From positions 1 to 64,000 of the forward strand of contig NZ_JPQO01000157.1 in the NCBI RefSeq assembly GCF_000773685.1: DNA of 64,000 nt. Direction: 5' to 3'. Shown here in pieces: positions 14,367 to 30,960 of the stretch. Under the pieces are notes generated by a model. It saw only the letters and a program-made list of their open reading frames with translations, was not told the origin of the DNA and searched no databases. This DNA is from Acinetobacter sp. HR7 (GTDB lineage Bacteria; Pseudomonadota; Gammaproteobacteria; Pseudomonadales; Moraxellaceae). The translations under genes were made by a program, and so were the position numbers. Numbering within the stretch: the first letter of the stretch is position 1; each line of letters starts with the position of its first letter.

Positions 14367-14380
14367 AGTTATATCCAACT

Positions 14381-15256
14381 TTAGAGTTTTAGTTCCTGAA
14401 TCAGCGCTTTAAATGATTCACCCAGTTTTGGATGATCAATCCCATAATGTAGTACAGCTTTGAGATAACCGAGTTTGCTACCACAGTCAAAAGTCTGGCC
14501 TTTCATACGGTATGCTTCAACTGTATCAGTTTGCTGCAACATGGCAATGGCATCTGTCAGCTGAATTTCGTTACCTGCGCCACGTGGCGTCTGTTCCAAT
14601 AACTGCATAATTTTTGCAGGCAGGATATAACGACCTACCACAGACAGATTTGAAGGTGCAGTACCAACAGCAGGTTTCTCGACAATGCCTTGCATCACTG
14701 TACTCTGACCTTCATCCGGAGTAGTTGCAACATCAACAATCCCATATTGATCAACCAAGTGATCCGGCACAGCTTCAACCATAATCTGGGACGCTTGAGA
14801 TTCATTAAAACGTTGAATCATCAGACTCAGGTCATTGGTTGTATCACTATCTTTCACCAGAACATCTGGTAGTAGTACAGCAAAGTCTTCATTACCTACT
14901 ACATTTTTGGCACAAAGTACTGCATGACCCAAACCTAAAGGCTGTGGCTGACGTACGCTGATCACACTAACGTGAGGAGGAAGAATCTCAGTGATCTCTT
15001 TGAGCAGATCAAATTTTTTCTTTTGTTCCAGTGTAGTCTCTAACTCAAAGCTACGGTCAAAATAGTTTTCAATCGAAGCCTTGGAAGAATGGGTCACCAG
15101 AATAATCTGTTCAATACCAGCCGCAACAGCCTCTTTGACCACATATTCAATCGCAGGGCGGTCAACCACGGTTACCATTTCTTTTGGAATAGACTTACTT
15201 GCAGGAAGAAAACGTGTGCCGAGGCCTGCAACTGGAAGAATTGCTTTCTTAATCAT
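14381..15256 (-). CDS. galU: UTP-glucose-1-phosphate uridylyltransferase
   Basis: 291-aa nucleotidyltransferase that makes UDP-glucose from glucose 1-phosphate. N-terminal [18 protein letters not shown] holds the UTP-binding loop; [26 protein letters not shown] and IVEKPAVG follow. First gene of galU-ugd-pgi-galE, with 14 bp to ugd. UDP-glucose made here feeds GalE and would feed Ugd if that protein were active. Because an IS lies upstream between pglF and galU, galU probably depends on its own promoter (see 15289-15318). Confidence 0.96.
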
Positions 15257-15288
15257 TGTTAACTTACTAAACTAATCGAAAGGAACAA

Positions 15289-15318
15289 ACTATATTAGTT
15301 ATCTTGATGTTCGGCAAA
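15289..15318 (-). promoter_or_regulatory. Candidate promoter of the galU operon
   Basis: On the minus strand TTTGCC and TATAGT are separated by 18 bp, with the -10 box about 33 bp before the galU start. The -10 matches 5/6 of the consensus and the -35 only 3/6, so this is tentative. Confidence 0.35.
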
Positions 15319-15828
15319 CTTTAACTTCATTGTATTATTGAAAAATTTTTAATGTCTCTTCTGACATAATCAAATATATTATATTCAATAAGTTTATAAT
15401 CCATAAACCATCTTTTATCTTGGTTCATTAATTTCAATTCATACATAATACAAATGGATTATAGCTCTAATCCTCATAGTCAGCCATGTCTTGAGTAAAA
15501 CAATAATTAATTTTAAGGATATGAACTAAATAATACTTTCTATAGCGGGTCCATTCTAAGATTATAGTCAATAAAAACTCGCATTTAACTTTAAAAGAAG
15601 AAATATGGCCTTGAAATACAGATTTGTTCAACCACACCCAGACAAACCGTAGATTCATCATTTTTTCCATCACATTTAGATGAAACTTAATCAATTATTT
15701 TATGATACTTTAATCAATAAATTTAGATAGACTCATTTATCAAACAACAGAAAACTCTGCATTCACATAATTTTTATTTCAAAAATTTAAACCATATAAT
15801 AAATTTTATTTTTTAATCATAAAGTTAT
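15319..15828. other. AT-rich gene-poor interval left of the IS
   Basis: About 500 bp that are visibly richer in A and T than the flanking genes. The only notable frame is a minus-strand one of 75 codons (15467-15694) opening with TTG, with no ribosome-binding site and no similarity I recognise. It could be chance or the eroded remainder of a gene lost from the glycan locus. Confidence 0.4.
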
Positions 15829-15838
15829 GATACATTTA

Positions 15839-15855
15839 GGGTCTATTGACATTTA
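15839..15855 (+). repeat. Left terminal inverted repeat of the IS
   Basis: GGGTCTATTGACATTTA. Two mismatches (positions 5 and 7) to the right end. Confidence 0.85.
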
Positions 15856-15915
15856 CTGTGCAAAAAAATAGCGAGAAAGTAGAATTTAATCGCCAAACCA
15901 AATCTACTCCTCGCT

Positions 15916-16679
15916 ATGCCTCGTACAATGTTGACAGGTCAACACTGGTCTAAGTTAGAAACCATTTTCCGTAATTTTCGTATTTATCTCAAACAAAATC
16001 TTCGAAATTTTATCGAAGCTATTCTTTTTAGAATTCATACAGGCTGCCTATGGAGGGATTTACCCGCTGCCTTTGGAAAACCAAGTTCTATATTTAAGAA
16101 GTTTTCCCGATGGTCAAAAGATAATAAGTTATTAAAAATATTTAAGTTAATTTCATCTGATGCTGATTTGGAATGGGGGTTTATTGATGCCAGCCATGTG
16201 AGAGCTCATCAGCACGCTACAGGAATCAGGTATCAGGCAATTTCAAAAAGTATCGGTGGAAACAGTTCTAAAATTCATTTGGCGGTTGATTCTAATGGGA
16301 CCCCTGTTCAGTTTCTGATAGAAGATGGCACGACCCACGATGTAAAAGTGGCAGGGAACTTAGTTACAGCATAGACCTAAATGAGACAAAAATTCTCTGT
16401 GCCGATAAAGGGTATGACTCTAAGTTATTGAGAAAACAGATAGAAAGTACAGGTACTAAAGCCAATATTCCCAAGAAATCCAATACGCTTTCAAATAACG
16501 ATCATATGGATTGGTATTTATATAAAATTAGGCATTTAATTGAAAATGCCTTTGCAAGGCTAAAGCAATTTAGAAGAATTGCCACACGCTATGACAAGCT
16601 AAAGCGAAACTATGAAAATTCTGTTGTTTTAGTTTGTATCTTTATTTGGCTACCATTATTAAATGTCAACAAACCCTAA
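15916..16679 (+). pseudogene. IS5-family DDE transposase in two frames
   Basis: Frame 1 (15916-16374) carries the N-terminal DUF4096-like part (CLWRDLPAAFGK) and the first catalytic Asp in GFIDASHVRAHQHA. The rest (CADKGYDS with the second Asp; IENAFARLKQFRRIATRYDK with the Glu) is in the -1 frame, read from about 16366 to 16679. Inserting one base after GTT at 16363-16365 would restore a continuous protein, so either a base was lost or a programmed frameshift is used; no A6G-type slippery run is visible at the junction. The stop codon TAA is formed outside the element by the duplicated TA plus the next base. Confidence 0.8.
16660..16676 (-). repeat. Right terminal inverted repeat of the IS
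   Basis: Reads GGGTTTGTTGACATTTA on the minus strand, matching the left end at 15 of 17 positions. Confidence 0.85.
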
Positions 16680-16748
16680 TTAAATGTATCTAAAAAATTT
16701 ATCTATAGAATATTATAAATACAATATAAATTTAAAAACCCTTAGAAA

Positions 16749-18602
16749 TTATTCTTTTGACTGACTATAACCATCCACATACTCTTTAAGAATACTTATT
16801 AAATCTTCTATTTTTTGTTGATTTATTATATTAACAAAAATAACAAATACATTAGAAATAATTGAAAAATCAAAATACTTCTCAAAAGACTTCAAAATCC
16901 GCTGATGTTCTGTAGATTTTACTCCTTCGGCATTAATCAATAATTCTTCATATAACTTTTCACCCGGACGCAATCCAGTAAACTGAATTTCGATATCACC
17001 TACCCCATTTTCATCGATAGGCCGTAAGCCACTTAAACGGATCATCTGTTTTGCTAAGTCCACAATTTTTACTGGCTCACCCATATCCAATAAAAATACA
17101 TCACCGCCAGTCCCCATTGCGCCGGCCTGAATCACCAACTGTGCCGCTTCAGGGATGGTCATGAAGTAACGCGTTACATCTGGGTGAGTGACTGTTACAG
17201 GCCCACCGTGAGCTATCTGTTTTTTAAACAGCGGTACTACTGAACCTGATGAACCAAGCACATTACCAAAACGCACAATACTTATCTGGGTTTGCGGTTT
17301 GGTTGCAGCAAGCCCCTGACAATACAGCTCCGCCATACGTTTAGAAGCGCCCATGACATTAGTTGGTCGTACTGCTTTATCTGTTGAAATCAGAACAAAG
17401 GTTTCTACGCCTTGATTCACTGCAGCATCAACGCTACGTGCGGTACCAATAGACGTGTTATAAATCCCTTCAAAAGGATTGGCTTCGACCAAAGGAACAT
17501 GCTTGTATGCTGCCGCATGATAAACAGTTTGCACCTGATATTGTGCTAGTACTCTTTCAAGTTTTGTTTGATTGGTTACTGATCCTAATATTGGAACAAC
17601 CTTTACACCTGGGCTTTGTAATTCCCGGTCAATGGAATACAAGGCAAATTCAGACATTTCAAACAGAACTAGCAATTTAGGTTGGTGCTTGACAATCTGG
17701 CGGCATAATTCCGAACCAATTGACCCCCCTGCTCCAGTGACCATCACCACTTTATTTTTTATATTTTTTTCGAGCAACTCAGGTTTTGGTGGAACTGGAT
17801 CACGACCAAGCAAATCAATAATATCCACTTCCCGGATATCGGAGACTTTCACCTGTCCATCGACCAGCTGGGTCACGCCAGGCAATTCCATGATTTTCAC
17901 ATCGGACTGTTCAAAGGATTCAATTATTTCCTTTTTGCGGGCACGCCCAACTGAAGGCATGGCCAGTAAAATTTCTTCAATATGAAACTTACGGAATTTA
18001 CCTAAAACTCTTTTTGGCGCATAGATTTTTAAACCACTGAGTGACTGCCCTTGCAGCGAAGTTTTGTCATCAATAAAACAAACCGGTAGATAATTATCTG
18101 AACGAAATAATGCCGCCGCAATTTGCTGACCCGCTAAACCTGCCCCATAAATCGCAACACGTTTACGGTTAGCTTTTTTAGCAAAGGTGCGCAAAGTCAA
18201 ATAACGGATCAGCGCACGACTCCACCACATCCAGGAAAACAGCACAAAGCCATACATGAGCGGGATGCTCATCGGAATAAAGGCTAGGTCCAGTTTCTTG
18301 ACTGCGTACAGAACAACAATCTGGATAAAAGTCGCGATAGAAAGTCGCAGCAGATAATCTTCATTAAATGAACGGACAATTGCACTATAAATTCCCATCA
18401 GGGCAAAAATCAGAACACCAAATACCCCGACATAGAGATACCAGAACTCTAGCCCTCCCATGACAGAGACATTCGGTCGAGCCAGACGAATGGCGTAGAC
18501 CAGCCACATAATCACCGGCAAGACACAGATATCCATTGCCACCAGTACAATCTGTTTCTGGTGACGTGGCAAGGATGCAAGATATCGGATAATGTCTTTC
18601 AC
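16749..18602 (-). CDS. pglF: UDP-N-acetylglucosamine 4,6-dehydratase, membrane-anchored (PglF/FlaA1 large type)
   Basis: 617 aa. About four N-terminal membrane segments (residues 20-135) are followed by a Rossmann CoA-binding-like domain (VAIYGAGLAGQQI near 149) and a polysaccharide-biosynthesis dehydratase domain (VTGAGGSIGSELC near 289). The catalytic block is STDKAVRPTNVMGASKR, in which Met replaces the usual SDR Tyr as in PglF-type enzymes. It should convert UDP-GlcNAc to the 4-keto-6-deoxy sugar, first step to UDP-diacetylbacillosamine. Last gene of the pgl/tvi operon; in Acinetobacter K-locus nomenclature this type is called gdr. Inner membrane, cytoplasmic face. Confidence 0.92.
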   Translation of the reverse strand: MKDIIRYLASLPRHQKQIVLVAMDICVLPVIMWLVYAIRLARPNVSVMGGLEFWYLYVGVFGVLIFALMGIYSAIVRSFNEDYLLRLSIATFIQIVVLYAVKKLDLAFIPMSIPLMYGFVLFSWMWWSRALIRYLTLRTFAKKANRKRVAIYGAGLAGQQIAAALFRSDNYLPVCFIDDKTSLQGQSLSGLKIYAPKRVLGKFRKFHIEEILLAMPSVGRARKKEIIESFEQSDVKIMELPGVTQLVDGQVKVSDIREVDIIDLLGRDPVPPKPELLEKNIKNKVVMVTGAGGSIGSELCRQIVKHQPKLLVLFEMSEFALYSIDRELQSPGVKVVPILGSVTNQTKLERVLAQYQVQTVYHAAAYKHVPLVEANPFEGIYNTSIGTARSVDAAVNQGVETFVLISTDKAVRPTNVMGASKRMAELYCQGLAATKPQTQISIVRFGNVLGSSGSVVPLFKKQIAHGGPVTVTHPDVTRYFMTIPEAAQLVIQAGAMGTGGDVFLLDMGEPVKIVDLAKQMIRLSGLRPIDENGVGDIEIQFTGLRPGEKLYEELLINAEGVKSTEHQRILKSFEKYFDFSIISNVFVIFVNIINQQKIEDLISILKEYVDGYSQSKE

Positions 18603-18661
18603 AAAGGACTCGGGTTCAGATCTAAAAATCAGGGAAGGCGTAAATTATACGCTGTTTTTGA

Positions 18662-19834
18662 CTATGCAATACGGGCAATCACTTGCTGAATCACATCTAC
18701 ATTTTTTTGCAGGCTTTGTTCAGACAAGGTTGGATGCACCACAAACATCAGGCTGCTTTCACCTAGTTGTTGGGCATTCTGCAAACGCTGAGCCGGACAC
18801 CATGGTGTCCCTTCAAAAGCTTTCTCCAGATACACCTCTGAACAGGATCCGCTAAAACATGGCACACCCAGTGCATTGATTTCTGCCATGATGCGATCCC
18901 GTGACCAGGCTTCTGGCAAAGCATCGACATTAACCTGTACATAGCATTTATAGGCTGCATGCACATAATCCGCTGATGGTTTGGCTACAGTAAAATAAGG
19001 GCTATTTTCAAAAGCGGCTTGGATACGTGCCATATTGGCATTACGTACCGCAGTCCATTCCGGCATTTTTTTCAATTGAATACGACCAATCACCGCCTGC
19101 ATTTCCATCATGCGCCAGTTAGTCCCAAAGCTGTCATGTAGCCAGCGGAATCCTGGTGGATGCTGCTTGTTATACACGCTGTCATAATTTTTGCCATGGT
19201 CTTTATAAGACCACATTTTTTTCCACAGCACTTCATCATTGGTAGTGACCATGCCGCCTTCACCACCCGTAGTCATAATCTTGTCCTGACAGAATGACCA
19301 GGCGCCGATATGCCCGATAGAACCAGCAGATTTGCCTTTATACATGGCACCATGCGCTTGGGCACAGTCTTCGATCACATATAGGCCTTTTTCTTCAGCC
19401 AGTTGCATGATCGGATCCATGTCACACATCCAGCCTGCCAGATGCACGCAGATAATGGCTTTGGTATTTTGAGTCAGTACTGCTTCAATGGTACGGCGGG
19501 AAATATCCTGAGAATCCAGCTCCACGTCCGCAAAGACCGGATTAGCGCCCGCAGTGACAATCGAGCTTGCTGAAGCTAGGAAAGTCCGTGAAGTGACAAT
19601 CACATCATCCCCTGTCCCGATTCCCAAAGCTTTCAGTGCCACATCCAACGCAACCGTGCCATTAGCCACCGCAACGGCATGTTTAGTCCCCACAAACTGC
19701 GCAAATTCCTTTTCAAATGCACGGCATTCCTGACCAGTCCAGTAATTGACTTTATTTGACAAAAGAACCTTTGATACCGCGTCTGCTTCCTCTTGAGTAA
19801 AGCTTGGCCACGGCTCAAATGCAGTGTTTAACAT
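18662..19834 (-). CDS. pglE: UDP-4-keto-6-deoxy-GlcNAc aminotransferase (PglE-like)
   Basis: 390-aa PLP-dependent DegT/DnrJ/EryC1 aminotransferase. The PLP-binding Lys is in WSFCQDKIMTTGGEGG near residue 185; IEDCAQAHGA near 154 supplies the Asp that contacts the pyridine nitrogen. It should add the 4-amino group to the PglF product using glutamate. Start at ATG 19834 is chosen over an in-frame start at 19873 because AGGA lies 8 nt upstream and it avoids overlap with pglD. It follows pglD by 22 bp and precedes pglF. Confidence 0.92.
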   Translation of the reverse strand: MLNTAFEPWPSFTQEEADAVSKVLLSNKVNYWTGQECRAFEKEFAQFVGTKHAVAVANGTVALDVALKALGIGTGDDVIVTSRTFLASASSIVTAGANPVFADVELDSQDISRRTIEAVLTQNTKAIICVHLAGWMCDMDPIMQLAEEKGLYVIEDCAQAHGAMYKGKSAGSIGHIGAWSFCQDKIMTTGGEGGMVTTNDEVLWKKMWSYKDHGKNYDSVYNKQHPPGFRWLHDSFGTNWRMMEMQAVIGRIQLKKMPEWTAVRNANMARIQAAFENSPYFTVAKPSADYVHAAYKCYVQVNVDALPEAWSRDRIMAEINALGVPCFSGSCSEVYLEKAFEGTPWCPAQRLQNAQQLGESSLMFVVHPTLSEQSLQKNVDVIQQVIARIA

Positions 19835-19856
19835 GGGTATTTCCTGGTTGAGAGAT

Positions 19857-20513
19857 TTATTTAGACTCGACAATGCGAGCCGGATTGCCGACCACAGTCA
19901 CGCCGGCGGGGACACTTTTGGTGACCACGGCGCCCATACCGACGACAGCACCACGGCCAATCACCAAAGGCTGATCTGGTGTGCCCTGCTTGATCATCGC
20001 TCCGGCACCGATATAAGCATGGTCTTCAATATGAATATTACCGTTACATTTTACCCCTGGTGCAAAAGTAACAAAATCCCCAATCACACAATCATGCTCT
20101 ACATAACTGTATAAATTGGCATGGAAGCATTTACCGATCTGGATATTCGAAGCAATGGTCACAAATGGACTTAAGGCAGCACCGGCGGCAATTTTTGCCT
20201 GATCCATCAATACTACATTATCGGCCTGAATCGACCAGAGATGAATCCCATCCTGTTCAAGTCGCTGGGCAATTTTTTCCCGAACACGGCTATTGGCAAT
20301 CGCGATCTGCACCGCTTTAACCTCTGCAGATTCATTAATAAATGCTGCATAATTCATAGCACGATGACCATTAATCTGGGCGATTTCTATCAGGGCATCA
20401 TCAATAAACACGATTTCAGATAGATCATTGTCACGTGCCAGTTGCTGCCGCGCTACCGGCATCAGGCTACGGCCACAGCCGGAAGCACCATAAATCGCAT
20501 AAAGCTGGGTCAT
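19857..20513 (-). CDS. pglD: UDP-4-amino sugar N-acetyltransferase (PglD-like)
   Basis: 218-aa trimeric left-handed beta-helix acetyltransferase completing UDP-N,N'-diacetylbacillosamine with acetyl-CoA. The N-terminal Rossmann-like part begins LYAIYGASGCGRS; hexapeptide repeats start near 105. The catalytic His is in YVEHDCVIGDF (His140), and the C-terminal GNPARIV is typical. It overlaps pglC by 4 bp (ATGA), evidence for translational coupling in the pglC-D-E-F series. Confidence 0.92.
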   Translation of the reverse strand: MTQLYAIYGASGCGRSLMPVARQQLARDNDLSEIVFIDDALIEIAQINGHRAMNYAAFINESAEVKAVQIAIANSRVREKIAQRLEQDGIHLWSIQADNVVLMDQAKIAAGAALSPFVTIASNIQIGKCFHANLYSYVEHDCVIGDFVTFAPGVKCNGNIHIEDHAYIGAGAMIKQGTPDQPLVIGRGAVVGMGAVVTKSVPAGVTVVGNPARIVESK

Positions 20514-21115
20514 TTTTTCTGTTCCGGTGTGCCAGTGAATTTACTCATGGTCGCTTCGCCTTCGGCATTAATATCATCTTTAGCCAGTACCTTTTTCACG
20601 GTTTTCAGCATGATTTTAAAATCCAGCCAAAGCGATTGATGTTCCACATACCAAGTATCCAGACGGAATTTTTCTTCCCAGGAAATGGCATTACGGCCAT
20701 TGACCTGTGCGTGACCGGTCATGCCGGGACGGACATTATGCCGTTTCGCCTGCTCAGCATTATACAGCGGCAGATATTCCATCAATAAAGGACGTGGCCC
20801 AACAATACTCATATCGCCTTTGATCACATTCCACAGCTCTGGCAATTCATCCAGACTGGTGGAACGCAGCATCTGGCCAAACGGGGTCAGACGTTCACTG
20901 TCGGGTAAAGGATTACCCTGGGCATCCACAGCATCTTTCATGGTACGGAACTTGATCATTTCAAAAGGCTTGCCATGCAGACCTGGGCGCACCTGACGGA
21001 ACAGTACCGGAGAGCCTAGATTCTTTTTCACCTTATAGGCTACCAAGGCATATACGGGTGACAATATCACCAAAGCGGTTGAAGCGATGACTACATCCAG
21101 AATTCGTTTGATCAT
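20510..21115 (-). CDS. pglC: Initiating phosphoglycosyltransferase (PglC/ItrA-type)
   Basis: 201-aa monotopic phosphoglycosyltransferase of the bacterial sugar transferase family. It has one re-entrant N-terminal membrane helix (residues 1-28), FRQVRPGLHGKPFEMIKFRTM, the catalytic Asp-Glu pair in SLDELPELWNV, and MSIVGPRPLL. This short form without the extra WbaP membrane domain is the PglC group that uses UDP-diacetylbacillosamine, which fits the adjacent pglDEF. It should place the first sugar phosphate on undecaprenyl phosphate. Acinetobacter homologues are named itr. Confidence 0.92.
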   Translation of the reverse strand: MIKRILDVVIASTALVILSPVYALVAYKVKKNLGSPVLFRQVRPGLHGKPFEMIKFRTMKDAVDAQGNPLPDSERLTPFGQMLRSTSLDELPELWNVIKGDMSIVGPRPLLMEYLPLYNAEQAKRHNVRPGMTGHAQVNGRNAISWEEKFRLDTWYVEHQSLWLDFKIMLKTVKKVLAKDDINAEGEATMSKFTGTPEQKK

Positions 21116-22254
21116 ACCGATATTCCCATCTCGCGCAGCATGTGTGCATTGACCTGATGCACATCATATTTGCTTAAGGCACGTTCCCGCGACTGCTGTC
21201 CCATATAGACCATCAGCTTTGGATCGTCAATAAAATACTGCATCGCCTGCACTAGGTCATCCACTGATTTTACCCCGACCAGATAACCATTGACACCATG
21301 GGCGACAGTTTCACGGCAGCCCGGAGCATCGGTGGTAATAATCGCCCGCCCCATGGCCATAGCTTCCAGCACAGTACGTGGCGTGCCTTCACGATAAGAC
21401 GGCAAAATATACACCGAACTGGCTGCAATTGCCGGACGCACATCATTGAGTCTGCCCCAGTAATTGATGGTCTTTTCTGCAATCCAGCTGTCCAGCTCAG
21501 TCTGGGAAATTGCAGTCGGATTATCATCAATCCATCCCACCAGATGAAATTCCGTTTCCGGATATTGGGCTTTGATGATTCGCGCTGCTTCGGCATATTC
21601 ACGTACGCCTTTATCCCCCAATAAACGGGCAATAAGCAAAAATGAAGCTTTAACCTGACCTTGCGTATTTTGCGGCAATGGCATGATATCGAAGTCCTGC
21701 ACATTCACCCCGGAACCATTTACCACCACGGTCGGTTTATCTTTTTCCAGCAAATGCATATTCTGAAACAGCTTTAAATCATCCGGGTTCTGAAAGAAAA
21801 CTTTATCGGCATGCTTTAAGGCCTGGGCATATAAATCATGCACCATTTTCTGAAATAAGCTGCGTTGACCTGATTCAACATTCTGAAAGGCATAACCCAG
21901 ACCAGTAATTAGAGCGAAACGATGTGGAACTTTGGCTAACCAAGCTGCCAAGATGCCGTAGATGACCGGCTTAATGGTATACGACAGCACATAATCCGGC
22001 TGAATTCGACGGATCTGCTGATATAGATGCTTTAACAGTTTCAGATCTGCCAGCGGATTGGTACCTGTGCGCTGCATTGGAATTTCATGCACCTGATAGC
22101 CCAACTGTAACAACTGCTGATACTCTTCAGCAAAGCTGGACAGTTCCGGAGCCATGATATGGATTTCAAAACCGCGCGCGGCAATGGCTTCCAATAACTT
22201 GCCACGGAAGTTCAGCACTGAAGGTAAAAAGCTGCTGATCATTAAAAATTTCAT
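21112..22254 (-). CDS. GT4 glycosyltransferase, PglA-like
   Basis: 380-aa GT-B retaining glycosyltransferase. N-terminal MISSFLPSVLNFRGKLLEAI and C-terminal nucleotide-sugar block with SYREGTPRTVLEAMAMG (EX7E motif). It resembles PglA, which adds an alpha-1,3-linked HexNAc to undecaprenyl-PP-bacillosamine, and its place directly before pglC supports that it adds sugar two. ATG at 22254 overlaps the upstream stop as ATGA; the in-frame start at 22269 is less likely. Donor sugar is inferred, UDP-GalNAc or UDP-GalNAcA being available via TviB/TviC. Confidence 0.85.
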   Translation of the reverse strand: MKFLMISSFLPSVLNFRGKLLEAIAARGFEIHIMAPELSSFAEEYQQLLQLGYQVHEIPMQRTGTNPLADLKLLKHLYQQIRRIQPDYVLSYTIKPVIYGILAAWLAKVPHRFALITGLGYAFQNVESGQRSLFQKMVHDLYAQALKHADKVFFQNPDDLKLFQNMHLLEKDKPTVVVNGSGVNVQDFDIMPLPQNTQGQVKASFLLIARLLGDKGVREYAEAARIIKAQYPETEFHLVGWIDDNPTAISQTELDSWIAEKTINYWGRLNDVRPAIAASSVYILPSYREGTPRTVLEAMAMGRAIITTDAPGCRETVAHGVNGYLVGVKSVDDLVQAMQYFIDDPKLMVYMGQQSRERALSKYDVHQVNAHMLREMGISV

Positions 22255-23345
22255 GCCTGTTGGCTCCATACCTGCATATATTGCTGACTGACGGTTTCGA
22301 TGCTGAAATGCTGTTCTACCCGCTGCCGGGTCGCCTGCTTTAAAGCAATTTTCTCATCTGTACTTAATTGGAGATACTTTAAAATGGCTTGAGTTAAGGC
22401 ATCACTATCGCGTGGCGATACGATACTCCCCATCTCCTGCACGATATAACTGGCATCGCCAACATCAGTACTGATGCAAGGCAAACCGGAGGCCATCGCT
22501 TCAACCAATACATTGGGAAAGCCTTCGGTAATCGAGGTCATCAGAAAAGCATCAATGGATTGATAAAAGGCTGGCATATCGGAGACCTGATCCAGCAACT
22601 CCACTTTGTTCTGATCTAACTGATATTGTTCAAACAGGGCTTTGACTTCAGGATTATTGAAACTGGCCCCACCACCAGCAATTTTAAATACAATCGGCTG
22701 ATCTTTCAGTTTTGCCAGGGTCTCAAACAGATAAGGATAGCCTTTGGCTGGATGATAGCGCCCAGCAAAACCAATCACAACGGGATCGTGTAATTCAGGA
22801 TTAGGCTGAAACCTATCCAGATACACCCCGTTAGCAATCACATGGCTATTGGGCTTCTGAAACCCGAACGCCTGATGCTGCTGCATGGCAGAGTGAGCAC
22901 AATAAATAATCGCCTGAGGCTGCTTTGATAATAACTTGCTTAAGCCTAAAGCCAGTTTGGTACTCATCGATTCATCTTTCGGTGAAGCCAGAGAATGATG
23001 AATACCCCAGATTACCTTAGGTTTCTGCTTTAAGCCGATGACACTCAGGCTGGTCAAGACATTGGCATGGTACATCCAGCACTGCACCGTTTGCGGTGTC
23101 AGTTGTTTTAATAACGCACGCAGTTTTTGAATGGTGCCGAACGTATTGAGTCCATTCCAGCCTAGAGCATAATGTGTCTGACAGCGATCCAAGGTGCTTT
23201 GATACACTTTTGATGTTTTCATCAAGGCGATAATGACATGCTGATATTGTTGCTCAGTTGCCTGAATCAGGCGCGATAGCATCATTTCCGCACCACCAAC
23301 GCCAGCAAAGTTGGTGATCACATGTACCATGGTCGGCTTGCTCAT
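22251..23345 (-). CDS. GT4 glycosyltransferase
   Basis: 364-aa GT-B fold enzyme. N-terminal VITNFAGVGGAEMMLSRLI holds the glycine-rich acceptor loop; IGFAGRYHPAKGY near residue 190 starts the donor domain and SITEGFPNVLVEAMASG contains the EX7E motif. It is linked on both sides by 4-bp overlaps to other glycosyltransferases, so it is translated as part of a coupled set. One of three transferases that should extend the lipid-linked oligosaccharide; donor and linkage cannot be read from sequence. Confidence 0.87.
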   Translation of the reverse strand: MSKPTMVHVITNFAGVGGAEMMLSRLIQATEQQYQHVIIALMKTSKVYQSTLDRCQTHYALGWNGLNTFGTIQKLRALLKQLTPQTVQCWMYHANVLTSLSVIGLKQKPKVIWGIHHSLASPKDESMSTKLALGLSKLLSKQPQAIIYCAHSAMQQHQAFGFQKPNSHVIANGVYLDRFQPNPELHDPVVIGFAGRYHPAKGYPYLFETLAKLKDQPIVFKIAGGGASFNNPEVKALFEQYQLDQNKVELLDQVSDMPAFYQSIDAFLMTSITEGFPNVLVEAMASGLPCISTDVGDASYIVQEMGSIVSPRDSDALTQAILKYLQLSTDEKIALKQATRQRVEQHFSIETVSQQYMQVWSQQA

Positions 23346-24460
23346 GCGGCCTGCTCCATCATCTCCAGGTACTGCTGCAAGACTGTCAATTTATGGAACT
23401 GCTCGATATGTACAGCAAAATCCTGCTCTGCATAGCTGACATAATCTCCAAAAATGGCTTTCTGCATGGCTTGAGTGAGTCCGGCCTGGTCATTGCATTC
23501 TACTAGCAAGCCAAATCTGGAGTTATCCAGAATTTCCATCGGACCGCTTGGGCAATTGGTACTCACCACTTTGATTTTAGAGGCTAGTGCCTGAATCAAC
23601 ACACCCGGCAAACCTTCCCAGTTAGAACTAAGCACAAACAGCGAAGCATATTTAAAATAGGCATAAGGATTAGAATCAAATCCTGGCAAATCCACCACGT
23701 CGGTCAGGCCTAACTCAGCAATGAGAGTCTCGAATTCAGTACGGAGTTCACCTTCACCTAGAATCAGCAAGCGAGTGTCCGGATGCTGATCATGCAAGTC
23801 TTTAAAGGAACGGATCAAAAAACCAAAGTTTTTGGCTTCAGTCAGGCGGCCAACCGCCAGAATCACTTTATTGCTGCCATCAAAGAATGTGTGCTGCACG
23901 GGTGTTTTTAATTTTTCAAAATAGGCATCATCCAGTACCGGGTTATAAATGGTACTTAGATTGGACTTTTTATAGCTGTAATATTTCCGGAAATCCTGTT
24001 CAACGCCTTTAGAGACACACACCACCTGCTGTGCCATCGGATAGGTAAAATTCACCAAGGTTTTCAGGATGAATTTTGTCAAGCCCTGGTTTTTTATATT
24101 TTTAGACGGCGTTGATACTTCCCGGAAAATCAGGCGGGTTTTCACCCCAGCCAGTTTCTTGGCCAAAGCGGCAATAATATTGGTATGGGTTTGTGTGACC
24201 ACCAGACAATCATACTGCTCAGCCTGCAGTTTCTGTTTTAACGGCAGAATCGCATTGGCGACACGGCCGCAGTCAAAATTCACCAACTGGATTTTCGGGC
24301 TAACTTCCGGCAGTAATTTTGCCTTGACTCCATTCAGGTCACACACACCCAGATGAATATTCAGGCCCTGTTCGGCAAAACTGTTGGCCAGCTGAATCAC
24401 CGTGCGCTCCGCACCACCGCCACCCAGCGTCGGCAAAAAGAACATCACTTTATTCAACAT
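23342..24460 (-). CDS. GT4 glycosyltransferase, PglH/PglJ-like
   Basis: 372-aa GT-B enzyme. N-terminal FFLPTLGGGGAERTVIQLA, central VILAVGRLTEAKNFGFLI and C-terminal SSNWEGLPGVLIQALAS with EX7E. The general pattern resembles GalNAc transferases such as PglH/PglJ, but specificity is inferred only. It starts 20 bp after the acetyltransferase stop and ends overlapping the next glycosyltransferase by 4 bp. Confidence 0.87.
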   Translation of the reverse strand: MLNKVMFFLPTLGGGGAERTVIQLANSFAEQGLNIHLGVCDLNGVKAKLLPEVSPKIQLVNFDCGRVANAILPLKQKLQAEQYDCLVVTQTHTNIIAALAKKLAGVKTRLIFREVSTPSKNIKNQGLTKFILKTLVNFTYPMAQQVVCVSKGVEQDFRKYYSYKKSNLSTIYNPVLDDAYFEKLKTPVQHTFFDGSNKVILAVGRLTEAKNFGFLIRSFKDLHDQHPDTRLLILGEGELRTEFETLIAELGLTDVVDLPGFDSNPYAYFKYASLFVLSSNWEGLPGVLIQALASKIKVVSTNCPSGPMEILDNSRFGLLVECNDQAGLTQAMQKAIFGDYVSYAEQDFAVHIEQFHKLTVLQQYLEMMEQAA

Positions 24461-24480
24461 AATCAGACCTGACTTAAAAA

Positions 24481-25029
24481 TTAATGGGAGGTTTTAGAGG
24501 CTTGAATTTCGATAGCGCGCTGTACCCGTTCGGCATAGTCCTGAATACCGACCAGATCGCTATCACTGGCACAGGTCGCCTGGATCTTGGTCTGATAATC
24601 CGCAAAGCTGGACACCACTTTGGCTGGCACACCAATCGCGACACTATTATCCGGAATATCTTTGGTCACCACAGAGCCGGCACCGATCACTACATTCGAG
24701 CCGATGCTCACGCCCGGCATAATGATACTATTCACGCCAATAAACACATGAGAACCCACCTGAATCGGCGCAAAACGTTGATAGCGTTTGCCTTGAACAT
24801 CTTTCACCAGACAAGTACTGCCATCATGGGTAATAAATTTCACCCCGGAAGTCACGGTAACATGATCGCCGAGTGAAATTAAAAATGGCTCTGAGCCCCA
24901 GCTCTTGATATAGATCCGGCACTGCTCCCCTACGGTCACGCCTTTTTTACGCGCATAGGCCACACTGCCCTTGGCCATAAAATAGACCAGGTCAAACAGC
25001 AGATGAAAAGCAGAACGAATAAAGGCCAT
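24481..25029 (-). CDS. Hexapeptide-repeat acyltransferase (WbbJ/MaaA-like)
   Basis: 182-aa left-handed beta-helix acetyltransferase with an amphipathic N-terminus. Hexapeptides run from about 85 to 140 and the His in FITHDGS is the probable general base of this O-acetyltransferase type; the helix ends with VVIGAGSVVTKDIPDNSVAIGVPAKVV. It probably O-acetylates a sugar of the locus glycan. ATG 25029 is preferred to an in-frame TTG at 25047; neither has a strong ribosome-binding site. Confidence 0.8.
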   Translation of the reverse strand: MAFIRSAFHLLFDLVYFMAKGSVAYARKKGVTVGEQCRIYIKSWGSEPFLISLGDHVTVTSGVKFITHDGSTCLVKDVQGKRYQRFAPIQVGSHVFIGVNSIIMPGVSIGSNVVIGAGSVVTKDIPDNSVAIGVPAKVVSSFADYQTKIQATCASDSDLVGIQDYAERVQRAIEIQASKTSH

Positions 25030-25108
25030 AGGGCTAATAAAACTCAATGCAAAAAGATCAAGCCGGATATTTTACGCTGAAAATAGGCAGAGGGATATGC
25101 ATGCCCAG

Positions 25109-25705
25109 TCAGAGTGATTTTATTTTTTTCGCCGGAATCCCAACATAGACACCTGCCTCTGTCAGCGGCTTGGAGACCAAGCTACAGGCGCCAATTACAC
25201 TATTATCTGGAATCGTCACACCATCCAGCACTGTGACCCGTGCGCCCAGCCAGATATTTTCACCTAAACTGATGCCTTGCTTGGTAATCTGGTCCTTGAC
25301 CAACACATCCGGCTCACCAAATTTATGGTTGCTGGCGATAATGATGCTTTGTGTCCCAATCCGGGTATTGTTGCCAATTTTTACCCCGCCACAGCCATTG
25401 ATATAGGACTTGGAATTGATGCTGACATCCCGACCAATTTCGATCTTGCCACCAAAACATTTGATATAGCAGTTTTCACCAATAAAGCTGTGATCTGCAA
25501 TGGTCAGACTCGCACCCGGCTCGACAATGATGCTGACATAATCCCCAATATAAACATTCTTGCCAATTTTGACCTGACCACTAATTTCCAAAGTCGAATA
25601 TTTGCCAAAGTAGCGAAACCGCGTGCCAAAAGCCAGATTATAAATCGCCTTACGGCACTGCGCAGTGAACCAATGCATGAGCTTCAAGGCTTTAAAAAAC
25701 ATCAT
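25109..25705 (-). CDS. Hexapeptide-repeat acyltransferase
   Basis: 198-aa member of the same superfamily as the gene downstream but a different subgroup. It has an N-terminal basic amphipathic stretch, then hexapeptides from about 45, the block IIIASNHKFGEPDVLVKDQ with the probable catalytic His, and GACSLVSKPLTEAGVYVGIPAKKI at the end. ATG at 25705 overlaps the wzx stop as ATGA and has GGAG upstream, so it is preferred to the longer start at 25720. It likely acetylates a hydroxyl or amino group of the glycan. Confidence 0.82.
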   Translation of the reverse strand: MMFFKALKLMHWFTAQCRKAIYNLAFGTRFRYFGKYSTLEISGQVKIGKNVYIGDYVSIIVEPGASLTIADHSFIGENCYIKCFGGKIEIGRDVSINSKSYINGCGGVKIGNNTRIGTQSIIIASNHKFGEPDVLVKDQITKQGISLGENIWLGARVTVLDGVTIPDNSVIGACSLVSKPLTEAGVYVGIPAKKIKSL

Positions 25706-26874
25706 ACTTTGCTTCTCCACACCACGTATAAAATGGCAAAGTTATAGAAAATCAACGCGACCGGCACCGCCATCAGTATATACAGCTTGTCGCTTAATAG
25801 CAGATACAGAACGGCAAATAAAATGAATTTAATGCACAACTCGACAATCTGCAATTTAAACAATACCTTGCTATTACGCCGGGCCACCAGATAAGCAGAA
25901 CTGGGCGGATTACAGAAAATCGCCCAATATCCTAAAGCTAAAATCTGGAAATATTGCGAAACTCCTAGCCATTCCTTGCCAAAAATCCAGAGATATAAAG
26001 ACTCCGGTACAACAAAGAAAATGGCAAATAGGGGCAAAGACACTACGCTAAGTAGCACGCTACTTTTTAAAGCCGGTTTATTGGTCTGAGTCGTTTTAAA
26101 CAGCCGGATAAAAAATTGACGTAAAGTCTGCGAAATCAGATTAATCGGCACCCGTAAGGTTCGTTCGACAATGGCATAAAAACCCATCGCCTGTACACCA
26201 ATAAAATGTGACACCACATAATAAGGCAAATTATGTGAAAAACTGTTTAGCAAGGCATGTGGGGTATTGGCATAGACAAAATCTTTATAATTTTTAAACA
26301 CCTCCCAGCTGACCTGATAGAGTTGATGTTTCAGGATATACAGCACCCCCACGATGATCATGATCACTGAACTGATCATATAGCTGTCAATCAAGGCAAT
26401 ACTCATCAGCAGCGGCAAACTCAGCTGGACTGCAATCACAATCAGGCTACGAAAAATATTCAGCCCGGCACAAAAATATTCAGCATGTGCAGCAAATTTA
26501 TAATTATACAGGCTCTGGATCAGGGTATTGGCCAGCACACCGCTACAGATCGCAGCAACCATATCTAAGCGAAAGATAAAACTTAATACCAAACCACTGA
26601 TCAGGGTCAGAACCAGAGAAAAAATGCTTCCCTCAAAAATCAGGCTTTTTTTCTCCTGTTCTTCTGCAATAAGGAGGGCCTGATCCAGACGTAAATTGGC
26701 CACTGTGGATAAAACACTGACCACAGCCAAGGCAATGCCATACTCGCCAAAGTCCTGCACCGAATACAGGCGCGTTAAAACAGGAAGTGCGATAAATGTC
26801 ATTATCGCACCTACAAGTAAACTTAGGGTAATTAAACCAACAGATTGGTATTTGGCGAGCAGACGCGCAATCAT
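25702..26874 (-). CDS. wzx: Wzx-type oligosaccharide flippase
   Basis: 390-aa polytopic inner-membrane protein with about 11-12 hydrophobic segments and the N-terminal pattern [28 protein letters not shown] typical of PST-family flippases. It should flip the undecaprenyl-PP-linked oligosaccharide to the periplasm. It is at the short end for Wzx. It overlaps tviC by 4 bp and the acetyltransferase by 4 bp. No Wzy polymerase gene accompanies it in this locus. Confidence 0.87.
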
Positions 26875-27896
26875 GTCAGATTATGAACATACCACTGCAT
26901 GGCCAGCTGAATGCCTTCAGCAATTTTATATTTTGGTGCATAGCCTAAATGCTGCTGAATCTTAGCAATACTGGCCTGAGAATGACGTACATCCCCAGCA
27001 CGAAAATCACGATAGATTGGATCTTTATCGTACTGCACACCATTTTCAGCTAAAGCATTCTGAATGGCGCGATACAATTCATTCAAGGTAGTACGATCAC
27101 CCACCGCGACGTTATAAACCTGATTTTTGGCATTTTCATCGGTGGTAGTGGCTGCCAGAATATTAGCTTGTACCGTATTCTCAATAAAGCAGAAATCACG
27201 GCTGGTTTCACCATCACCATTAATGAACACATCATCGCCAGCGATCATCGATGCTGTCCATTTTGGAATCACCGCCGCATAGGCGCCATTGGGATCCTGA
27301 CGCTTACCAAAGACGTTAAAGTAGCGTAGGCCTATCGATTTAAAACCGTAAGCGCGAGCGAATACATCAGCATATAACTCATTGACATATTTGGTCACCG
27401 CATAAGGAGATAATGGATGACCAATATGTTCTTCCACTTTAGGCAGTGCCGGATGATCACCATAAGTTGAACTGCTGGCAGCATAAGTAAAGCTGGATAC
27501 ACCAGCATCCCGTGCCGCAGTCAACATATTCAGGAAACCGCTGATATTGGTTTCATTGGTGGTAATCGGATCAGCAATAGAACGTGGTACAGAACCTAGA
27601 GCCGCTTCATGTAAGACATAATCCACGCCGGCACAGGCTTGCTGACAGTCCGCCAAATTACGGATATCGCCTTTAATGAAGTGGAAATTTGCCCATTGCT
27701 CGGCACTGACCTGTGACTGAACTTCATCCAGATTATACTGATGACCAGTAGCAAAATTATCCAAGCCGACTACTTTCTGATTCAGTTTCAGTAAGGTTTC
27801 CAGCAAGTTGGAGCCGATAAAGCCTGCAACACCAGTCACCAACCAGGTTTTCGGTGTCTGCTGCAACTGCTCACACACCGTTTGATATGGGTTCAT
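26871..27896 (-). CDS. tviC: UDP-N-acetylglucosamine/glucosaminuronate 4-epimerase (TviC/WbpP type)
   Basis: 341-aa extended SDR enzyme. The N-terminal helix precedes [14 protein letters not shown] (NAD-binding), and the catalytic pair is in [19 protein letters not shown] with [13 protein letters not shown] before it; the long N-terminus starting about 17 residues before the Gly motif is typical of WbpP/TviC and unlike GalE. It interconverts UDP-GlcNAc(A) and UDP-GalNAc(A). Directly follows tviB by 30 bp in the same operon, as in the Vi-antigen and Pseudomonas O6 clusters. Confidence 0.92.
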
Positions 27897-27926
27897 TCTC
27901 TTTAAATCCTAAATGATGCTAATGGG

Positions 27927-29204
27927 TTACAGACGCAGATCTGATTCAGCCTGACTGAATACATATTTCAGGTCATACAGGACATGATTGGCCTTACCTA
28001 GAGCACGAATCTGGGCTGCCCCCATCGCTTTAAACTGTTCATGTGCTACAGCCAGAATCACTGCATCATATTCACCATTTTTCAGCTCAGTAATCGGATG
28101 AATGCGATATTCATGCTCTGCTTCAGCTGCGTCAATCCATGGATCATAGACGTCGGCCTGAATATGGTATTCCTGCAGCTCATGCACGATATCAATCACT
28201 TTAGTATTACGGATATCCGGACAGTTTTCCTTAAAGCTCAGGCCCAGTACCAGCACCTTAGCACCTTCAACCTGGATCTTTTTCTTGATCATGCCTTTGA
28301 CCAGCTGGGTTACCACATAGGCCCCCATACCATCATTCAAACGACGCCCCGCCAGAATAATTTCCGGATGATAACCAATAGATTGTGCTTTATGGGTTAA
28401 ATAGTATGGATCTACACCAATACAGTGACCGCCGACTAGACCTGGACGGAATGGTAAGAAGTTCCATTTGGTTCCCGCAGCCTGCAGTACGGCTTCAGTA
28501 TCAATCCCCATTTTATTAAAAATCACTGCCAATTCATTGATCAGCGCGATATTCACATCACGCTGGGTGTTTTCAATGACTTTGGCTGCTTCTGCGACTT
28601 TGATGCTTGGTGCCTTATGAGTACCTGCCTGAATAATCAGGTTATAGACCTGATCCACATAATCCGCCACTTCAGGAGTAGATCCTGAAGTAATTTTTAG
28701 AATATTGGTCACACGGTGCTGTTTATCCCCTGGATTAATTCGTTCCGGGCTATAGCCAGCAAAGAAATCGGTATTGAATGTTAAACCTGACACCTGTTCC
28801 AGTACCGGAATACAAGCTTCTTCAGTCGCTCCAGGATAAACAGTGGATTCATAAACCACCACATCACCCTGAGACAGAACCTGACCAATGCTTTGCGATG
28901 CTTTAATTAGCGGAGTGAGATCTGGCTGTTTAAACTGATCAATGGGAGTTGGAACAGTCACGATATAGAAGTTGCAATCTTTTAGGTCTTCTAAATTGGC
29001 ACTGTAATGTAATCTTGTCGCTTGTGCTAATTCTTCTGGAGACACTTCCAAGGTATGGTCTTTGCCAGACTTAAGTTCATCAATGCGTTTTTGGTGAATA
29101 TCAAATCCCACGACTGGGACTTTTTTACCGAATTCAACAGCCAGAGGTAAACCGACGTAACCTAATCCGATAATGGCAATTTTGAGTTCCGAAAGCTGTA
29201 GCAT
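27927..29204 (-). CDS. tviB: UDP-N-acetyl-D-glucosamine 6-dehydrogenase (TviB/WbpO type)
   Basis: 425-aa nucleotide sugar dehydrogenase that oxidises C6 of UDP-GlcNAc or UDP-GalNAc to the uronic acid using two NAD+. [16 protein letters not shown] gives the NAD site, and the catalytic motif [12 protein letters not shown] near residue 258-269 keeps its Cys, unlike the ugd-family protein at 13110. ATG 29204 is preferred to 29231 because homologues start near [12 protein letters not shown]. First gene of the twelve-gene operon; called gna in Acinetobacter K loci, where wza-wzb-wzc normally lie just upstream but are absent here. Confidence 0.93.
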
Positions 29205-29516
29205 TGATCTAGGCCTATATATGGGTATCAATGAATGATAACCCTGCTTTTTAAATGGGAAGGTATCTTTGACATCCCTATTATATTGCTAAGTCAAATA
29301 TTGATGAATGTTTTTATTAACTCTTATAGATTAATTTTCCGATTTACAAAATTTTAATCCAGATAAAAAGAAATTCTAAGCACAATAGTATAAATTCCTA
29401 CTCTACGAAACCATAATAAAAACCCGTCGTTTTTTGCATAGCTTGTTCAAGATTTCTGAGAAATTTCTGCTAAGATGGACTGAACATTAACGATAACATT
29501 ATATTGGAAATACTAC
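29205..29516. other. Intergenic region between tviB and fkpA
   Basis: 312 bp between divergent tviB and fkpA, AT-rich, with the promoter of the glycan operon. In typical Acinetobacter K loci the wza-wzb-wzc export genes occupy this place. No fragment of them is visible here. Confidence 0.6.
29280..29308 (-). promoter_or_regulatory. Candidate promoter of the tviB-pglF operon
   Basis: On the minus strand a perfect TATAAT is preceded 17 bp upstream by TTCATC (3/6 of the -35 consensus), giving a 5' leader of roughly 65-70 nt before tviB. The perfect -10 makes it plausible; no JUMPStart-like element was recognised. Confidence 0.42.
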
Positions 29517-30221
29517 ATGAGTAAGGCCTTACCGATTGCTGTCGCTGTTATCCTAGGCGGTGCTGCGCTCGTTCCTGTTTACTATGCATCTCAAAATCCT
29601 ACAACTCAAAGCTCTAAAGCTTCTAAAAATGCATCAGCGGTTTCAAAAATCAGCTATGCGCTTGGTTATGAAGTAGCACATCAGACGCCGCCTGAGCTAG
29701 ACATTAACAGTTTTGTTACTGGTGTTCGTGAAGGCCATGCACGTACTAAACCTGCTTATACTGAAGAAGAATTACAAGCAGCTTACGAACAGTTCCAGAA
29801 AGACATGCAACAAAAGCAACTGGATGATGCTAAAAAGTCTCAAGCTTCTAGCGACTCATTCCTGACTGAAAATGCGAAAAAACCAGGCGTGAAAAAAACC
29901 GCTTCCGGCCTGCAATACCTGATTACTAAAGAAGGTACAGGTAAATCACCTGCAGCGACCTCTGTCGTTAAAGTTCACTATACTGGTAAACTGGTCGATG
30001 GTACCGTATTTGACAGTTCAGTTGAACGCGGTGAGCCAATTGAATTCCCACTGAACCAAGTGATTCCAGGCTGGACTGAAGGTTTACAGTTAATGAAAGA
30101 AGGTGGTAAAGCCACTCTTTATATTCCAGCGCAACTAGGTTACGGTCAGCAAGGTGTACCTGGTACGATTCCACCAAACAGCACCCTGATTTTTGATGTG
30201 GAACTCATCCAAGTCAAATAA
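29517..30221 (+). CDS. fkpA: FKBP-type peptidyl-prolyl cis-trans isomerase
   Basis: 234-aa periplasmic or membrane-tethered isomerase with an N-terminal hydrophobic segment (residues 5-25), a dimerisation helix region (45-115, with [19 protein letters not shown]), and a C-terminal FKBP domain ([58 protein letters not shown]). Assists folding of exported proteins. In Acinetobacter fkpA marks one border of the K locus, and it does so here. It is followed by a terminator and a second fkpA. Confidence 0.94.
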
Positions 30222-30230
30222 TACGGTTCA

Positions 30231-30258
30231 GGGAGAGCATTGGCTCTCCCTTGTTTTT
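30231..30258 (+). terminator. Terminator between the two FKBP genes
   Basis: Perfect 8-bp stem GGGAGAGC/GCTCTCCC with loop ATTG and TTGTTTTT after it, 10 bp past the first stop. It leaves only 12 bp to the next start, so expression of the second gene would need readthrough or a promoter inside the first. Confidence 0.85.
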
Positions 30259-30270
30259 GAGAAACTCATA

Positions 30271-30960
30271 ATGAAAATACAATTAAGTTTGGCTGCCCTA
30301 CTCGTATGTTCTAGCAGCCTATATGCCAAAGAGATCACCACTAAAAGTACAGAAGCAGAACAGGTGGGTTATAGTTTTGGCTATCTGATGGGTAAAAATA
30401 ATGCCGATACGCTAAAGGGGATTGATCTAGATGCATTTAGCAACGGATTAAAAGCTGCAGCTTCCGGTCAAAAAGCCACAATTTCCGAAGAAGAAATGGC
30501 GAAAGTCCTGCTGCAATACAAACGTCAATCAGATGCTCGTGAACTAATTGAGCTCAAGAAAAAAGCTGAAGAAAACGCCAAAATTGGCCGTGAGTTCCTA
30601 GCTAAAAATGCCAAACGACCGGGTATCAAAACTACAAAATCTGGTCTGCAATATTTAGTTTTACAGGAAGGCAAAGGTAAATCACCAAGTGCGAACAGCA
30701 ATGTCAAAGTGCATTATGAAGGCCGCCTGCTCGATGGTACCGTATTTGACAGCTCGATTGCCCGTAACCAGCCTGTGGTCTTTAAAACTACCCAAGTGAT
30801 CCAGGGCTGGACCGAAGGTCTGCAACTCATGAAGCCCGGTGCCAAATATCGCTTCTTCATTCCACCAGAACTCGGTTATGGTCAGATTGGTTCAGGTGAC
30901 GTGATTGAACCCAACAGCACCTTAATCTTTGATATTGAACTGATTGAAGTGACCAAATAA
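30271..30960 (+). CDS. FKBP-type peptidyl-prolyl cis-trans isomerase, second copy
   Basis: 229-aa paralogue of the gene just upstream, with the same architecture: cleavable signal peptide (MKIQLSLAALLVCSSSLYA), helical dimerisation segment and FKBP domain ([63 protein letters not shown]). It differs from its neighbour in having a typical signal-peptidase I site instead of an uncleaved-looking anchor. ATG 30271 chosen; the upstream in-frame extension from 30193 would run through the terminator and into fkpA. Periplasmic chaperone role inferred from family. Confidence 0.92.
   Translation: MKIQLSLAALLVCSSSLYAKEITTKSTEAEQVGYSFGYLMGKNNADTLKGIDLDAFSNGLKAAASGQKATISEEEMAKVLLQYKRQSDARELIELKKKAEENAKIGREFLAKNAKRPGIKTTKSGLQYLVLQEGKGKSPSANSNVKVHYEGRLLDGTVFDSSIARNQPVVFKTTQVIQGWTEGLQLMKPGAKYRFFIPPELGYGQIGSGDVIEPNSTLIFDIELIEVTK

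Follow-up and report, generated by a model that had tools for sequence, protein, structure and literature searches.

A glycan operon at the capsule locus of Acinetobacter sp. HR7 lacks polymerase and exporter genes and probably serves protein O-glycosylation

We analysed a 64,000-nucleotide stretch of DNA from Acinetobacter sp. HR7 (contig NZ_JPQO01000157.1, positions 1 to 64,000; hereafter the window), part of a genome of 3.12 Mb in 227 contigs with a completeness of 100. The subject of this work is a 12-gene operon on its minus strand (16749-29231) that runs gna-tviC-wzx, two hexapeptide transferases, three family 4 glycosyltransferases (GT4), then pglC-pglD-pglE-gdr. It is flanked by fkpA on one side and by galU-ugd-pgi-gne1-pgm on the other, with pgm on the plus strand, so that the fkpA and galU-ugd-pgi-pgm borders of the Acinetobacter capsule (K) locus are both present. 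The closest named relatives by FkpA were Acinetobacter sp. BY419, A. kookii, ANC 4169, ANC 4173 and A. terrae, all of them Acinetobacter, and the source genome is therefore Acinetobacter. Genes and borders were established from open reading frames (ORFs) and Pfam and NCBIfam matches, which confirmed the K-locus borders and glycan genes listed in a first-pass annotation of this DNA. Genomes, contigs and loci carry our own G, C and L handles (the window genome is G000), and papers are cited from excerpts of their text. The features are as follows.

27927-29231, minus strand: gna, UDP-N-acetylglucosamine (UDP-GlcNAc) 6-dehydrogenase of the TviB type, first gene of the operon (NF011729 TviB, 702 bits, above cut-off)
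26871-27896, minus strand: tviC/gne2, UDP-GlcNAc(A) 4-epimerase giving UDP-GalNAc(A) (NF011728 TviC, below the equivalog cut-off)
25702-26874, minus strand: wzx, lipid-linked oligosaccharide flippase, 390 amino acids (aa) (PF13440 and PF01943 above cut-off; 8 crude membrane spans)
25109-25720, minus strand: hex203, hexapeptide-repeat acyltransferase, probably for O-acetylation (PF00132)
25048-25108, minus strand: 61-bp gap between hex203 and hex188, containing ATTTTCAGCGTAAAAT at 25069-25084; G026 has a 355-aa Wzy candidate there
24481-25047, minus strand: hex188, hexapeptide-repeat acyltransferase (PF14602, PF00132)
23342-24460, minus strand: GT4 glycosyltransferase a (PF00534)
22251-23345, minus strand: GT4 glycosyltransferase b (PF13692, PF00534)
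21112-22269, minus strand: GT4 glycosyltransferase c (PF13692, PF00534)
20510-21115, minus strand: pglC/itr, initiating phosphoglycosyltransferase (PF02397)
19857-20513, minus strand: pglD/qhbB, UDP-amino-sugar acetyltransferase (TIGR03570 above cut-off; PDB 7l7y, 4m9c)
18662-19873, minus strand: pglE/qhbA, sugar aminotransferase (PF01041; PDB 7l7x, E 4e-176)
16749-18602, minus strand: gdr/pglF, membrane UDP-GlcNAc 4,6-dehydratase (PF02719; PDB 5bju (WlaL), E 2e-91; 4 crude spans)
29232-29516, no strand: gna-fkpA spacer, 285 bp, the site of wza-wzb-wzc in relatives
29517-30960, plus strand: two adjacent fkpA genes, border (Pfam/NCBIfam)
10425-15256, minus strand: galU-ugd-pgi-gne1 border block
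15787-16676, plus strand: insertion sequence (IS) element between gdr and galU, DUF4096/DDE transposase, ORF 15916-16374

The start listed for gna is a TTG, and in most relatives the ORF has 9 codons fewer; the protein shares 84-97% amino acid identity across nine relatives outside the species. The best PDB match of TviC was WbpP (1sb8, E 2e-174) and that of PglC a diacetylbacillosamine (diNAcBac)-1-phosphate transferase (8g1n, E 8e-66); with PglC as the query, the window gene was the single match in the genome at E <= 1e-25. WlaL, matched by Gdr, is the PglF of C. jejuni. The GT4 enzymes at 23342-24460 and 21112-22269 were assigned from the Pfam scan alone. With the listed starts, the 11 gene junctions comprise four 4-bp overlaps, three overlaps of 17-19 bp and four gaps of 20-61 bp; the minus-strand operon of the first-pass annotation stands, with its claim of 4-bp overlaps holding for four junctions only. 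Wzx had also been named as the sole multi-span protein, which is not the case, as Gdr has four spans by crude count. The IS element (about 15787-16676) holds an IS4/5-type transposase fragment and, sitting between gdr and galU, means that the operon is not continuous with galU-gne1.

The locus encodes neither a Wzy polymerase nor the Wza-Wzb-Wzc export machinery, as the same annotation had stated. Used as tblastn queries at a threshold of E 1e-5, Wza, Wzb and Wzc of A. kookii had no match in the window, none in contigs C219 and C53 of the same genome and none in stretches L140-L142 of a second genome of the species (G163). A scan of 15257-29516 for stop-free frames of at least 100 aa with at least three crude membrane spans returned Gdr and Wzx only, and hence no Wzy frame. 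Among 12 Acinetobacter-labelled loci from the nearest-FkpA set (L006-L011, L013-L017 and L025; L006 has no wzb and L017 stops at a contig end), 10 have ORFs sized and ordered like wza, wzb and wzc just before fkpA, and those of A. kookii were verified by their domains (Poly_export; LMWPc; Wzz plus kinase-type AAA). These genes vary elsewhere (L006, L143, L146 and L012): wza-wzc pairs without wzb occur in BY419 and G118, wzb is frameshifted in G162, the Moraxellaceae metagenome-assembled genome L012 has only a partial wzb match, and A. terrae (L138, L165) carries two wza-wzb-wzc sets within one neighbourhood.

The spacer was compared with the corresponding region of G118: in window coordinates, the match upstream of gna extends up to about 29315 and resumes on the fkpA side at about 29448, with 16.3 kb between in G118. 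This block contains wzc and wza (both Pfam-confirmed), a second Wzx, a second pglC and a Wzy candidate with a PF04932 score of 26 bits, below cut-off; its nucleotide-sugar genes we take to be of the rml and fdt types, labels based on weak similarity. In G118 the wza and wzc have diverged (60 and 63% to A. kookii) and are not accompanied by wzb; the standard wza-wzb-wzc set is thus missing beside gna there too. The block may have been lost in the window species or gained in G118. The arrangement resembles that of A. variabilis, for which the excerpt of PMC12904642 describes additional copies of wza and wzc, located between fkpA and wzc, and no locus lacking these genes.

The 61-bp hexapeptide gap was considered as the scar of a deleted wzy and rejected: compared with G026 it holds no recognisable remnant, and loss elsewhere or gain in G026 would both be possible. 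The G026 candidate, a 355-aa protein with 8 crude spans that matches no Pfam family, is called Wzy from its place, size and membrane spans only, has matches in two of 175 genomes (G026 itself and G172) and, used as a query, found none in the window species. Within the gap, ATTTTCAGCGTAAAAT (25069-25084) is an imperfect inverted repeat between the hexapeptide genes and the sole copy of its pattern in the window; judged by eye, a similar sequence is seen in eight of the nine Wzy-less gaps printed (window counted), the exception being G112.

The first-pass annotation held that wza-wzb-wzc and wzy elsewhere in the genome, with a capsule of the same sugars, would speak against its reading; such genes were looked for and none was found, with PF14296, a further Wzy family, and genome-wide Wzb outside the search. 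For Wza and Wzc, PF02563 (Poly_export) gave one match, a 559-aa KpsD-like protein on C219, and PF02706 (Wzz) one match, its neighbour KpsE. For Wzy, PF04932 (Wzy_C) matched a single protein, the oligosaccharyltransferase PglL on C53, and PF14897 (EpsG) had no match. The PF04932 result likewise leaves no separate WaaL-type ligase. PglL has the domains PglL_A, Wzy_C and Wzy_C_2, its sole PDB match is an oligosaccharyltransferase, and its SAHN motif, whose histidine we take to be catalytic, is invariant in 11 of 11 aligned sequences (its own included).

The KpsD gene belongs to an ATP-binding cassette (ABC)-type kps locus (L004, C219 76-15191) with kpsM, kpsT, kpsE, kpsD, wecB and wecC; no kinase domain was seen in KpsE, and C219 also encodes two heparinase-like proteins and a protein of 1412 aa that has a pair of glycosyltransferase domains. 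With this capsule-like kpsMTED locus in the genome, the cell need not be capsule-free, and on the best reading any capsule would come from it. No paper on kps in Acinetobacter was apparent by title in our literature search.

G163, the second genome of the species (6 contigs), has this stretch too, 99% identical and in the same layout, and absence by chance or through an assembly gap was rejected on this agreement. The two genomes differ at the gdr-galU insertion site, where G163 has a dissimilar 882-bp insertion in place of the IS. In G163 one contig carries all three genes, kpsM starting about 18 kb from galU and some 20 kb from gdr. The kps loci align from kpsM into wecC; beyond this, positions 1-8585 of C219 have no blastn match at E 1e-20 in the adjoining 20 kb of G163, as expected for a variable capsule-type locus. 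From gna to GT4 b and in fkpA (window 22251-30221 versus L140) the genomes are nearly without synonymous change, whereas pgm has a synonymous divergence (dS) of 0.45. The operon thus looks recently exchanged between the two strains, and its identity in both is not independent proof of constraint.

Reading the operon in 11 genomes, we found it without Wzy in 10, four with Wza and six without; A. bouvetii was left out of this count as it has a variant operon with another Wzx and GT4. Five of these relatives combine the operon with Wza. In four of them (A. kookii, ANC 4169, A. cumulans and G118) the operon is Wzy-less and accompanied by additional polysaccharide genes, which include a different initiating transferase and polytopic proteins and are placed beyond the operon in the first three and before it in G118. 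The further genes include two polytopic proteins in ANC 4169, A. cumulans and G118 (the ANC 4169 pair without a Pfam match) and one 8-span Wzy candidate in A. kookii, where no second Wzx was seen and the operon Wzx might serve both pathways. G026 alone has a Wzy candidate inside the operon, together with wza-wzb-wzc; on the operon tree it groups with the Wzy-less G112.

Profile and homology searches covered 175 genomes of the genus. PF02563 matched in 168 genomes and KpsD (E 1e-30) in 30. In seven of these 30 (G000, G163, G072, G112, G119, G145 and G154) the PF02563 match is single and was taken as KpsD, its placement being checked for G000 only; seven further genomes (G027, G052, G101, G124, G130, G156 and G157; completeness of G157 80%, G052 93% and G130 91%) have no match. 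Fourteen genomes thus appear to lack Wza, and nine of these have a Wzx-PglC operon, in none of which a Wzy candidate was seen; all nine have a PglL-sized protein. The operon of the window lies directly beside fkpA in G000, G163 and G157 (where the contig stops before gdr), and directly beside dapB in G072, G027 and G112. In G119, G124 and G145 a different operon (gna, wzx, GT2, GT4s, tviC, pglC) lies beside fkpA, and in G124 about 14 kb inserted before pglC severs pglC and galU from the rest. This insert (L158 469-9903, L215 15374-19900) carries an ABC-type exporter pair, sugar genes and transposase pieces. Wza, Wzb and Wzc had no tblastn match at E 1e-5 in the stretches of these nine genomes, a search that covered all but L215 of G124.

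The remaining five, G156, G101, G154, G052 and G130, were without a PglC match at E 1e-25. Wzy_C frames of PglL size (548-583 aa from stop to stop) were found in 9/9 genomes with an operon versus 3/5 without a PglC match, the other two having no Wzy_C protein. Extra Wzy_C matches comprise second proteins of 433 aa in G124 and 380 aa in G130 and a weak fragment in G052. Wza is lacking in 7/30 genomes with KpsD versus 7/145 others (Fisher p 0.003), a number that overstates the evidence, the genomes being related and G000 and G163 one species. KpsD occurs in six of the nine Wza-less operon genomes and is missing from G027, G157 and G124; 23 of the 30 KpsD genomes keep Wza. The kpsM of G072 looks shortened (196 aa) and its kps locus may be damaged.

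All 12 operon genes are under purifying selection. The ratio of nonsynonymous to synonymous substitution rates (dN/dS) was 0.02-0.12 between the window genome and G118 (tviC compared only in part) and 0.03-0.10 between G072 and G027, both without Wza and without Wzy in the operon, which argues that the operon is in use without polymerase and exporter genes alongside. Similarity searches recovered the full set of 12 genes in 10 of the 11 genomes read, and 11 genes in G157. Pairwise distances of 11 operon proteins correlate with those of fkpA plus pgm (r 0.76, 45 pairs, 10 genomes, G157 excluded). As we read the operon tree, in which one node has a support of 0.74, and counting losses only, the usual wza-wzb-wzc would have been lost four times (G000/G163/G118; G157; G072/G027; G112), and the operon kind of G119/G124/G145 would add one or more losses.

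This K locus has therefore probably turned into a dedicated locus for protein O-glycans, whose product would be a short oligosaccharide flipped by Wzx and transferred by PglL; the gene content, the absences at the thresholds given, the conservation and the selection are observed, and the specificities, chain length and transfer are deduced. Gdr, PglE and PglD would make UDP-QuiNAc4NAc (the diacetamido sugar of bacillosamine type), and Gna with TviC the uronic acids UDP-GlcNAcA/GalNAcA. PglC would load the first sugar onto undecaprenyl phosphate, and the three GT4 enzymes could extend the chain to about a tetrasaccharide starting at QuiNAc4NAc, with GlcNAcA or GalNAcA possibly inside, a length and composition suggested by gene count and families. 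The two hexapeptide transferases may acylate the glycan, Wzx would flip the lipid-linked oligosaccharide, and the single PglL of the genome would move it onto periplasmic and outer-membrane proteins, at serines if A. baumannii is a guide. In the absence of Wzy and of Wza-Wzb-Wzc, this unit would be neither polymerised nor exported. The first-pass annotation had likewise favoured a short lipid-linked oligosaccharide over capsule; of the two fates it offered, PglL-type O-glycosylation is supported, with PglL present and the protein branch complete on paper, and the lipooligosaccharide cap is not, as no separate ligase was found.

Published work is consistent with this outcome. As excerpted, PMC6333632 and PMC12645811 describe a shared pathway in which single K units pass either to Wzy and Wza-Wzb-Wzc or to PglL, and in Table 1 of the latter, a review, a C2 acetamido sugar is accepted in first position, in keeping with QuiNAc4NAc. 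In the excerpt of PMC10249906, wzc is essential in A. baumannii 17978, a viable wzc deletion carries compensatory mutations, and the deletion strain is capsule-negative and protein O-glycan-positive. By analogy, losing the exporter with the polymerase kept may be harmful, which would account for exporter and polymerase both being missing.

Several observations weigh against a dedicated protein O-glycan locus. pglL lies among pilin genes, in a region that also encodes an ABC transporter and glycosyltransferases of its own, so that PglL could have a second donor. A PglL-sized protein is also present in three of the five Wza-less genomes that gave no PglC match. Sequence similarity among Wzy proteins is low, with the G026 candidate and several others matching no Pfam family, and according to the excerpt of PMC9676051, the wzy used by A. 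baumannii KL19, KL24 and KL39 lies in a genomic island. The fragmentation of the source genome into 227 contigs also counts here, although the 6-contig G163 agrees where read. Between the pilin genes and pglL (L005, G000:C53 95-14061) lie genes for a 610-aa 8-span protein without a Pfam match, a GT2, an ABC transporter, a methyltransferase, Glf and GT4s; this cassette differs between G000 and G163 and constitutes a second, variable glycan pathway at the pilin.

One alternative is that the donor serves mainly a type IV pilin or ComP-like pilin, a PglS-type use, rather than many proteins. Here a glycan cassette separates pglL from the neighbouring pilin genes, and in G118 pglL directly follows one. 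PglL cannot be told from PglS by PglL_A and Wzy_C_2: in the excerpt of PMC12645811 both are conserved in PglL and PglS and absent in known TfpO and TfpM. We nevertheless consider this unlikely, as G119, G124 and G145, with the other Wzy-less operon, have no recognised pilin gene beside pglL.

It is improbable that the unit is made into capsule by components encoded elsewhere, with a Wzy from another site polymerising it and KpsD/KpsE or another outer-membrane polysaccharide export (OPX) protein exporting it. KpsD and KpsE do occur in the genome and a Wzy is hard to spot by sequence, but no Wza or Wzc match was found genome-wide, PF04932 and PF14897 reveal no Wzy, no kinase domain was seen in KpsE, and KpsDE normally works with KpsMT. 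The island-borne wzy of KL19, KL24 and KL39 is a precedent (PMC9676051): like the window, these loci have Wzx and sugar genes and no wzy, but unlike it they keep wza-wzb-wzc, which A. baumannii K loci always include according to the same excerpt.

We regard ligation of the oligosaccharide to lipid A-core as a lipooligosaccharide cap as quite improbable. A Wzx product could end there through a WaaL/PglL-type ligase, and WaaL homologues are described in two non-baumannii Acinetobacter in the excerpt of PMC3628348; PF04932, however, shows no second ligase, and the single ligase carries PglL_A and Wzy_C_2, its sole PDB relative being an oligosaccharyltransferase. That the operon is a decaying capsule-locus remnant without present function, as the IS between gdr and galU and the missing exporter genes might suggest, is highly improbable given 12 of 12 open genes, their low dN/dS and their retention across the genomes read.

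Neisseria pgl and Burkholderia ogc loci make a dedicated lipid-linked short glycan for PglL, with a bacillosamine-type first sugar in Neisseria. A dedicated protein O-glycan locus in the window would be of the same kind, in a version that sits in the capsule locus and uses capsule-unit gene types. It resembles the Acinetobacter K locus in its fkpA/galU-pgm position, its gene types (gna/gne2, qhb/gdr, itr, GT4, wzx) and units that pass to PglL (Lees-Miller et al. 2013, via the excerpts of PMC6333632 and PMC12645811); it differs in having no wzy, wza, wzb or wzc, leaving the protein branch only. The shared pathway itself is already known; K-locus reduction to the protein branch in several lineages was not found described, and no paper on an Acinetobacter K locus without wza-wzb-wzc and wzy was apparent by title or abstract in the literature search.

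The Acinetobacter K locus is taken as capsule, and capsule typing and phage-host prediction build on it; here that reading would suggest a capsule, one that the cell is probably unable to produce with this locus. This natural split of the two pathway branches makes the role of the O-glycan testable without a capsule of the same sugars. We give about even odds to the broader proposal that Acinetobacter capsule loci have several times turned into protein-glycosylation loci through the joint absence of Wzy and Wza-Wzb-Wzc, with kpsMTED taking the capsule role in part of the lineages. With KpsD homologues present in 30 of the 175 genomes, and Wza as well in 23 of these 30, a further export system of capsule type is common across the genus, and the same pattern in nine of the 14 Wza-less genomes suggests that the genus can drop the capsule branch and keep its protein glycans.

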